Source: Rhizobium leguminosarum (GTDB taxonomy: Bacteria; Pseudomonadota; Alphaproteobacteria; Rhizobiales; Rhizobiaceae). Taken from it: 64,000 bases of DNA. The stretch lies in the NCBI RefSeq assembly GCF_001652265.1, contig NZ_LWBS01000272.1, positions 6,658-70,657 on the forward strand, written 5' to 3'. The translations under genes and the position numbers were made by a program. Below, piece after piece: positions 17,303 to 42,798 of the stretch (within the stretch, counting starts at the first letter, position 1; each line of letters starts with the position of its first letter). The notes under the pieces are model-generated. The model searched no databases. It saw only the letters and a program-made list of their open reading frames with translations, and was not told the origin of the DNA.

Positions 17303-17455
17303 ATTTTGACGACTTTCTCTTCTCATCTCGCACGTAATCCCCTGTTTTTGCTGGAATAATTTATTCGGCCTGAATCAGTGAAATGGCTGAGCGCGCGACG
17401 AGGGAAGGGCATCCGAAAAAAGATTCAAAAAAGTCGAATTTTTTTCGGATGGCAG

Positions 17456-17480
17456 GGAACCAAAGTTTGAGGTCGTCGTT
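17456..17480 (+). promoter_or_regulatory. EcfG-type promoter for a stress sRNA
   Basis: GGAAC (17456-17460), 16 bases, CGTT (17477-17480): an exact match to the EcfG general stress promoter pattern. No protein gene follows on this strand; instead a terminator ends about 130 bases downstream, so the transcript would be a short RNA. Confidence 0.7.
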
Positions 17481-17486
17481 ATTGCG

Positions 17487-17610
17487 ATATCCGGATGGTG
17501 ATCGCATCGACCCAACATGCGCGCCCCCAACCCACTATCCGGACGTACTCACGGTCCCCTCCCGGTGAGTGAAGACAGCTGGTGCGCCGCCCTCGCACCG
17601 GCTGTTTTTC
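17487..17610 (+). ncRNA. Candidate general-stress small RNA, GsrN-like
   Basis: This is a predicted transcript of about 120 nt, bounded by an EcfG promoter and an intrinsic terminator. Its middle part is C-rich and unstructured, then forms a hairpin (stem ACTCAC 17547-17552 with GTGAGT 17565-17570) whose 12-nt loop shows TCCCCTCCC, able to pair with purine-rich ribosome-binding sites. In Caulobacter the stress sRNA GsrN is made from a sigma-T promoter beside the phyR/nepR/sigT genes and acts through an exposed C-rich loop. Position, promoter and loop all fit. The 5' end is inferred from the promoter spacing, and sequence homology with GsrN was not tested. Confidence 0.6.
17576..17610 (+). terminator. 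Intrinsic terminator of the stress sRNA
   Basis: CAGCTGGTGCG and CGCACCGGCTG form an 11-bp stem (one G-U pair) around a 7-nt loop and are followed by TTTTTC. The U-tract exists only for the plus strand, so it ends the sRNA and not the convergent kinase gene. Confidence 0.8.
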
Positions 17611-17633
17611 GTTCTCGGCTGTCTCCAGGGCTT

Positions 17634-18647
17634 TCACACCCGCTTGAAGATCTCGAATTCGGTTTCCGGAATGGTCAGACGGTACTCGATGCGGCCGGGA
17701 ACGAGGTTCAACTCAGCTTTGCCATTGACCGACGAAGGCACGACACGCTCCAGCACGGTGCGACCGAAGCTGTTGTCGCTGAATTCGTGGACTTCCGACT
17801 GATCATGCAGAACTTCCGCCCAGGCAACTTCGATCGCCTTTCTGTCGTTGATCATGGCTTCGCGGCAATTGAGCGTGATGGAGGCGGCGCCGCCTGATAT
17901 TGCGCCGAAGGAGGCGGAATTGACGATGAGTTCGTGGAGGGCGAGCCCGAGATGCACGGCGGCATTCGGTGTCAGATGAGCGTTGATGCCATAGATCGGC
18001 ATGGAGCCGGCCGTCTCCGGCCAATAGGGGGCGAATTGCTTTTCGGCGAGTTCGAAGAGGTAGGCGCCGCGCCAGCTCGAATCCGTGATCAGGTCCTGCG
18101 AATTGGAAAGCGATTGCAGCCGTCCGCGGAACTTGAGGAGGAAGCTGTCGAGAGAGAGCGTGTTGCGCGCCGTCTGCGTGGCAATGCCCTGGATGATGGC
18201 GAGAAGGTTCTTCGAGCGGTGTGAGAGTTCGCGCAGCAGCGATTTCAGAACTTTTTCGCGATGCCGGCTTTCGGTAACTTCAGTCATGACGGACAGAAGT
18301 CCATGTGCGCTGCGTTCGCCGGTGCGCTGGATCTTCAGTTCATAAGTGCGCCTTTCGCCGTCGACATCGATCTCGACCTCGGCATTGTTGGGAATGCCGG
18401 TTTCCAGGACCTTGTGTTTCAGCGCTGTCAGATATCGCCCATGGGCGTCGCCGAAAAGGGCGGCGTCGCTGCCGCCGGGCATAAAGAGCGCCGCGAAATG
18501 CGGCGGCAGATTTTCGACGTAGAAGATCGACAGTCGAGCGTCCTGGCAGAGGATTGAAACCCCGGCGCTGCCGAGCGCGCGCTCCATCATTGCGGCTTTG
18601 CCTTCGAAGGTAAAAGGCATGCCGGACAATGGTTCAGTCGTATTCAC
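17634..18647 (-). CDS. HWE-family histidine kinase, probable PhyR kinase
   Basis: A soluble sensor kinase of 337 residues if the GTG at 18647 is used (AAAGGCGG lies upstream); an ATG at 18620 and a TTG at 18737 are alternatives. The N-terminal about 130 residues form a PAS-like input domain without membrane helices. The HWE/HisKA_2 kinase core follows, with His143 in ELSHRSKNLL and the ATP-lid motif ALHELIVNSASFGA. It sits directly downstream of phyR in the minus orientation and has its own EcfG-type promoter. Kinases of this family encoded beside phyR typically phosphorylate PhyR, releasing EcfG from NepR. The signal sensed is unknown. Confidence 0.85.
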   Translation of the reverse strand: MNTTEPLSGMPFTFEGKAAMMERALGSAGVSILCQDARLSIFYVENLPPHFAALFMPGGSDAALFGDAHGRYLTALKHKVLETGIPNNAEVEIDVDGERRTYELKIQRTGERSAHGLLSVMTEVTESRHREKVLKSLLRELSHRSKNLLAIIQGIATQTARNTLSLDSFLLKFRGRLQSLSNSQDLITDSSWRGAYLFELAEKQFAPYWPETAGSMPIYGINAHLTPNAAVHLGLALHELIVNSASFGAISGGAASITLNCREAMINDRKAIEVAWAEVLHDQSEVHEFSDNSFGRTVLERVVPSSVNGKAELNLVPGRIEYRLTIPETEFEIFKRV

Positions 18648-18775
18648 TCGGCCGCCTTTCCTTGTGACATCTTGACCGTCGCTGAAGGGAGCGCCCTTCC
18701 AGACACCGCCTGCCAACTCTAGAACAAAGCGCTGCAAAAACCGTTAAAGCCATCGGAACGTCCCGGTAGCACCGG

Positions 18776-18821: not shown

Positions 18822-19616
18822 TCAGGCGGCCACTCTGGTCGATTCATTGAAGAAAAGAGCCTGGCTGATTAGTGCCTTGACCATGTCCGGATTGAAGGGC
18901 TTGGTGACCAGGAAAGTCGGTTCCGGCCGCTCGCCGGTCAGAAGACGTTCCGGGAAGGCGGTGATGAAGATCACCGGCACGCTCGACGTCTTGAGGATGT
19001 CGTTGACTGCGTCGATACCGGAGCTGCCGTCGGCAAGCTGGATGTCGGCCAGCACCATGCTCGGCTTGGTCTTATTGTAGAGCGCCACGGCCTCGGCATG
19101 CGTACGGGCAATGCCGGTGACGCGATGGCCGAGGCTCTCGACCATCTGCTCGATATCCATGGCGATCAGCGGTTCGTCCTCGATGATCATGATATCGGTT
19201 GCGACCTGTCGGGAAATCTCCTGCGACGCTACGTCGAGCAGCTGCATGACATCTTGCTCCTCGGTTTCCAGGATTTCGGCGATCTCAGCGACGCGGAAAT
19301 TCTCTACGGAGGCGAGCAGGAAGGCCTGACGGGCGCGCGGCGAAACCTTGGAAAGGTTCAGCGTGGCGCGTTGCTCCCAGGCATAGGGCGAGGTCGGCTC
19401 CGGAATCTGGACTGCGGTGGAACCAAACAGTTGCGTGAACAGTTTGTAGAGTGCGACCCGGTCATTCGCCGTATCCGGGAAAATCGACAGATCGGCGATG
19501 ATGGCTTCGAGAACGGCGGCGACGTAAGCGTCGCCCGAAGTCTGAGTGCCGGTAAGGGCGCGGGAATAGCGGCGCAGATAAGGAAGGTGCGGCGCAATCC
19601 GAGTAGAAAGTGTCAT
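18822..19616 (-). CDS. phyR: Response regulator PhyR, anti-anti-sigma factor
   Basis: A 264-residue regulator. The N-terminal sigma-factor-like domain (about 1-125) mimics EcfG and, when the C-terminal receiver is phosphorylated, binds NepR. The receiver (about 138-258) has acidic residues in IIEDEPLIAMD, phospho-acceptor Asp191 in MVLADIQLAD, and TAFPERL and KPF around the conserved Thr and Lys. The ATG at 19616 is chosen because AGGAG lies seven bases upstream; longer frames lack this. It is divergent from nepR-ecfG and preceded by an EcfG-type promoter, so it is autoregulated. Confidence 0.96.
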   Translation of the reverse strand: MTLSTRIAPHLPYLRRYSRALTGTQTSGDAYVAAVLEAIIADLSIFPDTANDRVALYKLFTQLFGSTAVQIPEPTSPYAWEQRATLNLSKVSPRARQAFLLASVENFRVAEIAEILETEEQDVMQLLDVASQEISRQVATDIMIIEDEPLIAMDIEQMVESLGHRVTGIARTHAEAVALYNKTKPSMVLADIQLADGSSGIDAVNDILKTSSVPVIFITAFPERLLTGERPEPTFLVTKPFNPDMVKALISQALFFNESTRVAA

Positions 19617-19660: not shown

Positions 19661-19686
19661 TAACGCCGCCTTGATAAAAAAGTTCC
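19661..19686 (-). promoter_or_regulatory. EcfG-type promoter of phyR
   Basis: On the minus strand, GGAAC (19686-19682), 16 bases, CGTTA (19665-19661), placing the start of transcription about 40 bases before the phyR ATG. The -35 element is half of a GTTCCGGAAC palindrome. A plus-strand GGAAC-N16-CATT at 19696-19720 has one mismatch in the -10 and could serve nepR-ecfG weakly. Confidence 0.75.
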
Positions 19687-19842
19687 GGAACGGCAGGAAC
19701 TTTTTTCGTCGCGCCGCATTATTCCAGCCGACGAAGAAAGGGCGTAGCGTTTTGACCCATGCAGCGGCAAATACCAGCGACATCGACAATCGAACGTTCG
19801 ATGTCGATGGTTGAAATCGTGATTGATCCCATCCACGCCCCC

Positions 19843-19894
19843 TAGAACAGGATGATTTTAGGCCGGGTCGGCCTAAAATCTGAATCCTGTTCTA
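19843..19894. repeat. 52-nt palindromic repeat
   Basis: An imperfect inverted repeat in which AGAACAGGAT and TTTTAGGCC pair with GGCCTAAAA and ATCCTGTTCT around GGGTC. The end motif AGAACAGGAT recurs in the element at 42749-42798. It lies in the phyR-nepR intergenic region, upstream of nepR. Confidence 0.7.
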
Positions 19895-19906
19895 AATTAG
19901 AAAGTT

Positions 19907-19954
19907 AGAGCATGATGTCATCCGAAAACCGCTCCCACTTTTCGGCATCATGCT
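19907..19954. repeat. Palindromic intergenic repeat with AAAACCGCT core
   Basis: AGAGCATGATG and its inverse CATCATGCT flank the core GAAAACCGCTCCCACTTTTC. The same design is found, inverted, at 42749-42798, and the core recurs at three further sites in this window. Confidence 0.7.
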
Positions 19955-19985
19955 TTGGACAGACAACCGGCGAGAAGACGAATTG

Positions 19986-20192
19986 ATGACTACACGCAAG
20001 AAAGAAGCAGCCGATCAGCGAAAGCTGGAGCTGCGGGCAAGCGACATCCTGGACCCGAACAATCAGATCGGCGTCAGGCTGCGGTCGCTCTATGCGGCTG
20101 CACAGGATGAGGCGATTCCCGATCGTTTTCTCGACCTTCTCGAAAAGCTCGACCATGCTGAAATGATGGCTTCTGCCAAGATGGCCGAATAG
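19986..20192 (+). CDS. nepR: Anti-sigma factor NepR
   Basis: A 68-residue anti-sigma factor that holds EcfG inactive until phosphorylated PhyR binds it. The conserved core NQIGVRLRSLYAAAQDEAIP, then DRFLDLLEKLDHAE (about residues 26-60), matches the family. The ATG at 19986 follows GAGAAG at workable spacing. It is directly followed by ecfG after nine bases, forming the two-gene operon divergent from phyR. Confidence 0.93.
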   Translation: MTTRKKEAADQRKLELRASDILDPNNQIGVRLRSLYAAAQDEAIPDRFLDLLEKLDHAEMMASAKMAE

Positions 20193-20201
20193 GATCGCTG
20201 C

Positions 20202-20759
20202 ATGGAAGACAAATCGCAACCCAGCTTCAAGCGGGAACTGCTGGCGGCACTCCCAAGTCTTCGCGCCTTCGCGATCTCGCTCATCGGGCGGCACGACCGT
20301 GCCGACGATCTCGTCCAGGACACCATCATGAAAGCCTGGGCCAAACAGGATCATTTCGAGATGGGCACCAATATGAAGGCCTGGCTGTTTACGATCCTGC
20401 GCAACGAACTCTACAGCCAGATGCGCAAGAGCGGCCGCGAAGTGCAGGACAGCGACGGGCTGTTCACTGAATCGATGGCGATGCACCCCTCGCAATATGG
20501 CGCGCTCGATCTGCAGGACTTCAAGAAGGCGCTCGACCAGCTGCCGCCGGATCAACGCGAGGCGATCATCCTCGTCGGCGCCTCGGGTTTTTCCTACGAG
20601 GAGGCGGCCGAAATCTGCGGCTGTGCCGTGGGTACCATCAAGAGCCGCGTTAACCGAGCCCGCCAGCGGCTGCAGGAGCTGCTGCAGATATCCGGCGAGG
20701 CCGATTTCGGCCCCGACGCGACCTCGGCGCCGCTGACGTCGAAGGCCTTCGCATTCTGA
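20202..20759 (+). CDS. ecfG: ECF sigma factor EcfG (RpoE4-like), general stress response
   Basis: A 185-residue group-15 (EcfG) sigma factor. Region 2 (about 20-85) includes ADDLVQDTIMKAWAKQ and NMKAWLFTILRNELYSQMRK, and region 4 (about 115-170) includes LPPDQREAIILVGASGFSYE and GTIKSRVNRARQRLQELL. It directs RNA polymerase to GGAAC-N16/17-CGTT promoters, several of which are present nearby. It lies nine bases after nepR and is followed by a strong terminator at 20779. In R. etli the orthologue is known as RpoE4. Confidence 0.95.
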   Translation: MEDKSQPSFKRELLAALPSLRAFAISLIGRHDRADDLVQDTIMKAWAKQDHFEMGTNMKAWLFTILRNELYSQMRKSGREVQDSDGLFTESMAMHPSQYGALDLQDFKKALDQLPPDQREAIILVGASGFSYEEAAEICGCAVGTIKSRVNRARQRLQELLQISGEADFGPDATSAPLTSKAFAF

Positions 20760-21379: not shown

Positions 21380-21724
21380 TCAGCGCCGGGCGAGGAAGGC
21401 GATGGCAAGGCCGAAAGCGGCTGCAGCGCCGATGGTTGCCAGCGGATGCTGGCGCACCGTCTCACGCATTTCCGTCGCTCCACGCTCATAGCCGTGCTGC
21501 AATTCGCGCAGCAAATCCTCGCTGCGGCCGAGCAGTTCCTCGTAGCCGGCACCGGCCTGGCTACGGATTTTCTCACCCTGGTGGCGCGAGCTCTTGCCAA
21601 CGAGGCGCGTCAGTTCTGCGAGTTCGTCGCGTAGCGCTTCGATCTGCTCCTCGATGCCGGATTCCAGATTGTGGAAGGTGCCGTTGCGGCGGCTGCGGCC
21701 GGACTGGAAGATAGAATAGCTCAT
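21380..21724 (-). CDS. DUF883 (ElaB/YqjD-like) protein under stress control
   Basis: A 114-residue protein with a charged, predicted coiled-coil middle (about 22-90, for example EEQIEALRDELAELTRLVG) and one C-terminal membrane helix (PLATIGAAAAFGLAIAFLA). This is the pattern of the ElaB/YqjD family of tail-anchored proteins that bind ribosomes in stationary phase. The ATG at 21724 is chosen for GGAG seven bases upstream. A perfect EcfG promoter lies about 110 bp upstream. Family assignment is by architecture, not by alignment. Confidence 0.8.
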   Translation of the reverse strand: MSYSIFQSGRSRRNGTFHNLESGIEEQIEALRDELAELTRLVGKSSRHQGEKIRSQAGAGYEELLGRSEDLLRELQHGYERGATEMRETVRQHPLATIGAAAAFGLAIAFLARR

Positions 21725-21833
21725 GGCTGTCTCCATTGGCTGGGGCGCGCGCAAGCCCGCCTGTTTCGCACGAGGGTCACCACCGTCCGTTGCATGAATG
21801 ATATCGCCCGGCATTGACCCAGATCATGCCGGA

Positions 21834-21858
21834 AACGTGCCGGGCGATCAAAAGTTCC
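21834..21858 (-). promoter_or_regulatory. EcfG-type promoter of the DUF883 operon
   Basis: On the minus strand, GGAAC (21858-21854), 16 bases, CGTT (21837-21834). It lies between hmuV and the DUF883 gene and gives a leader of roughly 100 nt. Confidence 0.7.
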
Positions 21859-35754: not shown

Positions 35755-35779
35755 AACGACCGCGCTAATCCGAGGTTCC
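35755..35779 (-). promoter_or_regulatory. EcfG-type promoter of the DUF1236 gene
   Basis: On the minus strand, GGAAC (35779-35775), 16 bases, CGTT (35758-35755), with transcription expected to start near 35748, 28 bases before the ATG. Confidence 0.75.
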
Positions 35780-42748: not shown

Positions 42749-42798
42749 AGAGCATGATGCCGAAAAGCGTGAGCGGTTTTCGGACGACATCCTGTTCT
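42749..42798. repeat. Palindromic intergenic repeat, inverse orientation
   Basis: AGAGCATGATGCCGAAAAGC at the left and GACATCCTGTTCT at the right are the inverse of the elements at 19843-19954. Its right end overlaps the stop codon of the epimerase gene (42797-42799). Confidence 0.7.

Follow-up and report, generated by a model that had tools for sequence, protein, structure and literature searches.

The stretch of Rhizobium leguminosarum DNA analyzed here (64,000 nt, NZ_LWBS01000272.1, positions 6,658 to 70,657, forward strand; the whole is referred to as the window) carries next to phyK a small RNA (sRNA) that is very probably the ortholog of ReC64 of Rhizobium etli, a trans-acting RNA of the general stress response (GSR) that would be transcribed by EcfG, would pair through runs of C in its loops with G-rich mRNA leaders and would also occur as an 88-nt isoform. 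The R. etli ortholog ReC64 is already known and a proposal of homology with GsrN is in print; added here are the conserved loop of hairpin 2, the spread over 14 of 109 genera and the reading of the published bands as isoforms. Few RNA regulators are known for the general stress response of alphaproteobacteria, against its many transcription targets; a conserved RNA under EcfG control, sitting at the core locus in nitrogen-fixing symbionts, is a promising entry to the post-transcriptional layer of stress survival. The alignment singles out the loop that should be mutated first, and a published band that had been left open would find its explanation in the isoform reading. In a search of open-licence papers we found no functional study of the rhizobial RNA.

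Locus and Promoter

The features of the locus are as follows.
17456-17480, + strand: EcfG promoter, with -35 GGAAC at 17456-17460, -10 CGTT at 17477-17480 and a spacer of 16
17486-17612, + strand: sRNA (probable ReC64 ortholog), predicted start 17486 +/-2, end just past the U-tract
17490-17543, + strand: hairpin 1, branched, with an inner hairpin at 17503-17521
17522-17532, + strand: unpaired C-rich stretch of hairpin 1 in the predicted fold, CGCCCCCAACC
17547-17570, + strand: hairpin 2, with TCCCCTCCC at 17555-17563, in and beside the loop
17571-17609, + strand: hairpin 3, terminator-like, loop CCGCCCT, U-tract 17605-17609
17634-18737, - strand: phyK/tcrY, HWE histidine kinase (PF07536), convergent with the sRNA
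18822-19616, - strand: phyR, with an exact EcfG site upstream at 19662-19686 (-)
19950-20192, + strand: nepR (PF18557); the true start may be internal to the ORF
20202-20759, + strand: ecfG, from ORF and domain search

The sRNA lies tail-to-tail with phyK, whose stop codon is found on the opposite strand about 22-25 bp past the terminator. It is flanked on one side by phyK, phyR, nepR and ecfG and on the other by two genes whose domains are those of dihydropyrimidine-dehydrogenase-like subunits and which we take to be the two dihydropyrimidine dehydrogenase subunit genes. An initial annotation of this DNA, made from the letters alone, had described an exact GGAAC-N16-CGTT promoter, no protein gene and a position adjoining the PhyR kinase gene, and each of these points was borne out, with the promoter at 17456-17480 (+), phyK ending at 17634 (-) and overlapping ORFs of which none of the six tested stays open in every aligned row. 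The span that it assigned, 17456-17610, starts with the promoter; the RNA proper should begin near 17486, after the promoter, from which this start is deduced.

Exact GGAAC-N16-CGTT sites are overrepresented in the 64-kb window, with four found against 0.60 expected and four reached in only one of 100 shuffles. Two further exact sites lie at 21834-21858 (-), just upstream of a small minus-strand ORF (21380-21814), and at 35755-35779 (-). Across 79 aligned rows (the window plus 78 named loci) GGAAC-N16/17-[CA]GTT was present in every row and the exact GGAAC-N16-CGTT in 70, while the spacer and the flanks varied. Just upstream of the promoter, an A/T-rich inverted repeat with spaced A- and T-tracts (17408-17453) is perhaps an UP-like or bent-DNA element; its hairpin fold was not kept in the 22 relatives compared, in many of which the stretch is A/T-rich.

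The same 79 rows served to examine the coding potential. Six six-frame ORFs overlapping the sRNA were tested for frame and stops, and each of them lost its frame or met a stop in at least some of the 79 rows. The one starting at ATG 17517 was open and in frame in 11 and the others in 8 to 54, with one ORF of only 22 nt of overlap reaching 71. The hairpin-2 loop fell in all three frames relative to ATG 17517 (50, 21 and 8 rows). A protein-coding reading of the stretch was rejected, since none of the six ORFs is kept in all of the 79 rows.

Structure and Conservation Within the Genus

The RNA of about 125 nt starting near 17486 has a predicted fold of -53.1 kcal/mol (z -4.65), and none of 200 shuffles was as stable; the covariance model match to the window covered 17485-17612. 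The hairpin with a C-rich loop that had been annotated is hairpin 2, with TCCCCTCCC at 17555-17563, whereas hairpin 1, with its own unpaired C-rich stretch CGCCCCCAACC, had gone unmentioned. The intrinsic terminator with a U-tract had been named correctly in kind, but it is not a textbook one, since the five U (17605-17609) behind the strong, long stem of hairpin 3 can pair with GAAGA before the stem and since a simple terminator scan listed nothing at hairpin 3. An Rfam scan of the window gave no match above the gathering score. A model search found one copy of the sRNA in its own genome; a second, weak match proved to be the same stem on the other strand.

DNA matches to the sRNA were obtained in all 100 sampled genomes of the genus, its own included, the weakest covering only 60-64 nt, and at 78 of 80 named phyR loci; the two samples overlap (e.g. 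L031 and G039), and the two counts are therefore not independent. Of the two named loci that gave no DNA match, L091 lies on a contig ending about 0.9 kb behind phyR, too early to show the sRNA. The other, L108 (Rhizobium sp. ASV20), has enough flank and gave neither a DNA match nor a match to the wider model R2 described below; at this locus phyR and ecfG are present but phyK is not a neighbour, and the same genome has another phyR on L091. Among the 79 rows TCCCCTCCC was found in 78, CGCCC near the 5' end in 75 and GCCCCC in 57. The most conserved element in the genus is hairpin 2 with TCCCCTCCC; the published GsrN candidate is matched by the C-rich stretch in hairpin 1, which is shortened in part of the genus. 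Promoter, loop and terminator are conserved in related Rhizobium, a point on which the initial annotation had staked its reading.

Relation to ReC64 and a Possible 88-nt Isoform

ReC64 was found in R. etli CFN42 by tiling array and Northern analysis, in which 88 nt was the expected length and a larger band went without explanation (PMC2881028; PMC3892343 is the source of the figure of 88). According to PMC3892343, ReC64 lies downstream of phyR-tcrY and is preceded by an EcfG motif that the 5' RACE start fits; expression of a ReC64 fusion was abolished in ecfG1 mutants, with 82% kept in an ecfG2 mutant, and in E. coli the fusion was activated by EcfG1 or EcfG2. The same source states that ReC64 is conserved in R. 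leguminosarum 3841, and Jans and colleagues regarded it as trans-encoded (PMC3892343). ReC64 has also been reported to be over-expressed under saline shock, and the promoters predicted before it in that report were SigA and RpoH, not EcfG (PMC4167512).

The RNA of the window is likewise intergenic, downstream of phyR-phyK and behind its own EcfG promoter, and it shows 96.7% identity over 182 nt to the locus of strain 3841 (L031). Its identity with ReC64 rests on this position, on the promoter and on the reported conservation in 3841, R. etli ReC64 having been compared by its description only. While the place downstream of phyR-tcrY and the EcfG motif are the same, the lengths differ, with 88 nt reported for ReC64 and about 125 nt predicted here up to the terminator. 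The claim of an EcfG-driven sRNA is supported by the conservation observed here and by the RACE, reporter and mutant data for R. etli ReC64 (PMC3892343), and expression indifferent to loss of ecfG, named at the outset as evidence against it, is not what that source describes, the R. etli fusion having been abolished without ecfG1. The transcript of 100-130 nt that had been expected does have a counterpart in R. etli, but as a product of 88 nt plus a larger band, not plainly as one of 100-130 nt.

Counted from 17486, 88 nt end at 17573, which is the junction of hairpins 2 and 3, and because of this coincidence we read the published 88-nt band as a 5' isoform. Folded alone, the 88-nt 5' fragment forms hairpins 1 and 2. 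The 88-nt band is thus probably a two-hairpin 5' isoform from which the terminator hairpin has been removed in part of the molecules, and the larger ReC64 band, as judged from the published band sizes and the fold, would be the full-length RNA. A parallel can be drawn with the 5' isoform of GsrN, which has 51-54 nt; the published ReC64 bands are compatible with an endonucleolytic cut that leaves a stable 5' product, as in GsrN.

Taken as a sequence of events, stress would activate PhyK and PhyR and free EcfG from NepR, and EcfG would then transcribe the sRNA from its own promoter, a control shown for R. etli ReC64 and presumed to hold here. The RNA of about 125 nt would expose runs of C in its hairpin loops as seeds, and these, given the GsrN analogy and the conservation of the loops, may pair with G-rich sites in the leaders of mRNAs and so alter translation or stability. 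Part of the molecules would lose the terminator hairpin and persist as the 88-nt two-hairpin 5' isoform.

Covariation and Distribution Beyond the Genus

An RNAalifold analysis of 29 non-redundant rows gave 35 base pairs, 15 of them with two-sided changes. The covariance model built from these rows (R1) excludes the promoter. Applied to 60 phyR loci, which came from 49 family genomes and made up a part of the phyR places found, it yielded sense-strand matches at E <0.01 in 15. In a 31-member alignment (the window, 17 named loci and 13 R1-matched loci from other genera) 95.4% of 1062 cells pair, compared to 31-46% in slid controls, and two-sided changes were found at 28 of the 35 pairs, compared to a mean of 13.5 in shuffles, of which none of 500 reached this number, and to 11-16 in slid controls; having been fitted to the R1 structure, the alignment is biased in its favour. 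All eight pairs of the outer stem of hairpin 1 had two-sided changes. GGAAC was present 26-30 nt upstream of 30 of the 31 members, L198 being the only one without it, which leaves 12 of the 13 loci from other genera with the motif; the -10 is more variable (CGTT, TGTT, AGTT or CATT).

R1 matches were obtained in 20 of 151 family genomes, a number that includes two matches judged to be chance, in G112 (L130, E 0.005) and G181 (L129, E 0.003), which lie on another contig than phyR or about 210 kb away from it. Among 297 genomes of the order there were eight with matches, four from the genus of the window and four chance-like; the matches outside the family (L133-L136) were judged to be chance, as they cover mainly the terminator and lack a GGAAC-type promoter upstream in all four cases. 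At E up to 1e-4 the wider model R2 matched 34 of 247 family genomes, representing 14 of 109 genera, and each of the 14 genera had at least one match beside phyR. R1, which leaves out the promoter, likewise returned homologs beside phyR in other genera. At GSR loci R2 also matched L176 and L173, which were weak R1 matches, and the new L178 (36, 30 and 30 bits). Absences from these genome searches are soft, since few candidates are scored per genome. R2 was built, under a stricter threshold, without the minus-strand rows and L176; minus-strand matches over the same RNAs (e.g. L131 and L276) read as reverse complements of palindromic stems.

In each of eleven of the 49 genomes in which both phyR copies were sampled, an RNA match was found at only one copy. 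The four genomes of L207-L210 have two phyR copies each, and there it is the more diverged one (56-59% identity to the PhyR of the window) that has the sRNA next to it, and not the copy closer in sequence.

C-Rich Loops as a Possible Common Design

The unpaired bases inside the hairpins of the 31 members (1093 of 4000 bases) consist of 56.3% C and 9.1% G, compared to 36.1% and 24.2% overall. A run of at least four C was found in hairpin 2 of all 31 members, in hairpin 1 of 25 (counting L168, where hairpin 1 folds as three small ones, as having the run) and in hairpin 3 of eight. A similar arrangement was recovered behind promoters: of 248 EcfG-like promoters in the 60 loci, ten, in ten loci, are followed within 95 nt by at least two hairpins with C-rich loops, compared to 6 of 4960 in shuffled and 5 of 3600 at random positions, and an uncontrolled variant, at least two C-loop hairpins plus a terminator behind EcfG-type promoters, was found in 12 of the 60 loci. 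Three of the ten loci (L180, L194 and L221) were missed by the covariance models, and the design therefore seems to outreach the detectable sequence family.

Elsewhere in the class, 20 loci were judged by eye and without control. L260 and L268 pass the filter for an unpaired C-run behind an EcfG-type promoter and look like sRNAs with terminators; L256, L257, L266 and L273 also pass it and appear less sRNA-like or overlap reading frames. Relaxing the criteria for four selected loci added L263 and L271. These fall under two family codes, one common to L260 and L263 and the other to L268 and L271. An extended reading, which we put forward tentatively and consider less probable than its contrary, is that the GSR sRNA of the Rhizobiaceae is multi-seed, with a C-run presented by each of hairpins 1 and 2 and, for some genera, by the terminator too, that the decisive seed has moved to hairpin 2, recognition of G-tracts being kept while the seed switches hairpin between lineages, and that a single stress sigma factor gains, time and again, C-loop RNAs that differ in sequence beside its own regulators. 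Hairpin 2 is not part of GsrN as described.

Relation to GsrN and katG

Homologs of GsrN were suggested by Tien and colleagues for R. etli and further Rhizobiaceae on the basis of GSR-dependent expression, position, promoter and a C-rich loop (PMC5869019); their R. etli candidate is taken here to be ReC64 from the paper cited for it. They describe the rhizobial candidate as an unpaired stretch lying between a small hairpin and a stem with the 5' terminus, called 'G-rich' in the legend and cytosine-rich in the text (PMC5869019), a description that agrees with the unpaired part of hairpin 1 rather than with the TCCCCTCCC loop. The loop singled out in the initial annotation is the better conserved one (78 of 79 rows versus 57 of 79), and it is not the one that the published candidate fits. 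The designation as a likely rhizobial GsrN does have a printed precedent (PMC5869019), but no convincing model match was obtained at the class-level loci, and the accompanying statement that gsrN sits next to the GSR genes in Caulobacter fails for C. crescentus, in which gsrN is distal to the GSR locus (PMC5869019).

The sRNA shares with C. crescentus GsrN an EcfG/sigma-T promoter, as judged here from sequence, an exposed C-run in the 5' hairpin (17522-17532; at least four C in 25 of 31 members) and the link to the stress response. It differs in an extra C-loop hairpin, which is its most conserved part in the genus; GsrN is reported to have about 100 nt, and gsrN is not beside the GSR genes in C. 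crescentus. When the two covariance models were run against the 20 GSR loci elsewhere in the class, the best score was 24 bits, at L263. Since none of these matches is convincing, the likeness to GsrN would be one of design.

True common ancestry with Caulobacter GsrN, with katG as a shared target, appears doubtful. The same sigma factor, a C-rich stretch in the 5' hairpin, the GSR linkage and the two published bands are consistent with it, as are the EcfG-type promoters with C-loop hairpins at the class GSR loci L260, L263, L268 and L271 (two family codes) and the weak matches near GGAAC at L263 (R2, 24 bits, E 0.003) and L256 (R1, 19.3 bits, E 0.007, GGAAC 35 nt upstream). However, both of these matches are near noise and L256 was missed by R2, and BLASTn does not link the two, matches to GsrN being reported from Caulobacteraceae only (PMC5869019).

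With regard to katG, the C-loop of Caulobacter GsrN pairs with the first seven nucleotides of katG mRNA and raises KatG, and the katG leader of the genome studied here (L279 2690-2780, -) contains GGGGCGC, a 7-nt complement of GCGCCCC in hairpin 1 that is variable among relatives and would fit a shared target. Of 50 katG loci, 33 have an oxyR-type leader; in 19 of these leaders loop 1 matches over 7 nt at the longest. The median shuffle P for the 33 was 0.085, with P up to 0.05 in 11 leaders, compared to a median of 0.92 for the reversed loop 1; the leaders are related and the matches therefore not independent. Against a shared target stand the drift of the match among leaders and the 17 katG loci that, by pattern, lack such a leader. 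Target prediction with the TCCCCTCCC loop, which had been suggested for finding targets, gave a median P of 0.68 on these leaders, no better than its reversal (0.79). Overall, katG is a weakly supported lead as a target of the sRNA.

Other Readings of the RNA

An anti-Shine-Dalgarno sRNA of the alpha-r14/NfeR1 type, whose CCUCC loops would block ribosome binding sites, is unlikely. Three hairpins, variable stems and CU-rich loops resemble the alpha-r14 family and NfeR1 of Sinorhizobium meliloti (PMC7143759, PMC3927594), and TCCCCTCCC contains CCUCC. In contrast to that family, which is reported to have the anti-Shine-Dalgarno motif in all loops, a sigma-70 promoter and six copies, the sRNA of the window has C-runs, an EcfG promoter, one copy and no Rfam match, and CCUCC is found only at its hairpin 2. 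This reading is weakened further since CCUCC occurs in the hairpin-2 region of 23 of the 31 members, among them only 5 of the 13 that other genera contribute, while the run of at least four C is present in all 31. SmelC601 of S. meliloti, known from a table in which its coordinates span 127 nt and its promoter is given as RpoE2 (PMC7143759), is a lead only.

That the RNA works chiefly in cis, either through antisense pairing with the 3' end of the phyR-phyK message or through transcriptional interference, is improbable: the phyK stop lies close past the terminator on the opposite strand, and at L207-L210, where no kinase lies between, the sRNA is convergent with phyR itself at 56-164 bp, so that the convergent arrangement is kept, but the loops are conserved while the stems covary, which antisense pairing does not demand, and ReC64 was regarded as trans-encoded by Jans and colleagues (PMC3892343). 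The preferred reading is that of a trans-acting, EcfG-transcribed ReC64 ortholog.

Elsewhere in the locus, the region between phyR and nepR (19840-19960) contains large inverted repeats, and a word from them is found again, with a single mismatch, at 42753-42769; by their look, these repeats presumably represent a rhizobial intergenic repeat element.
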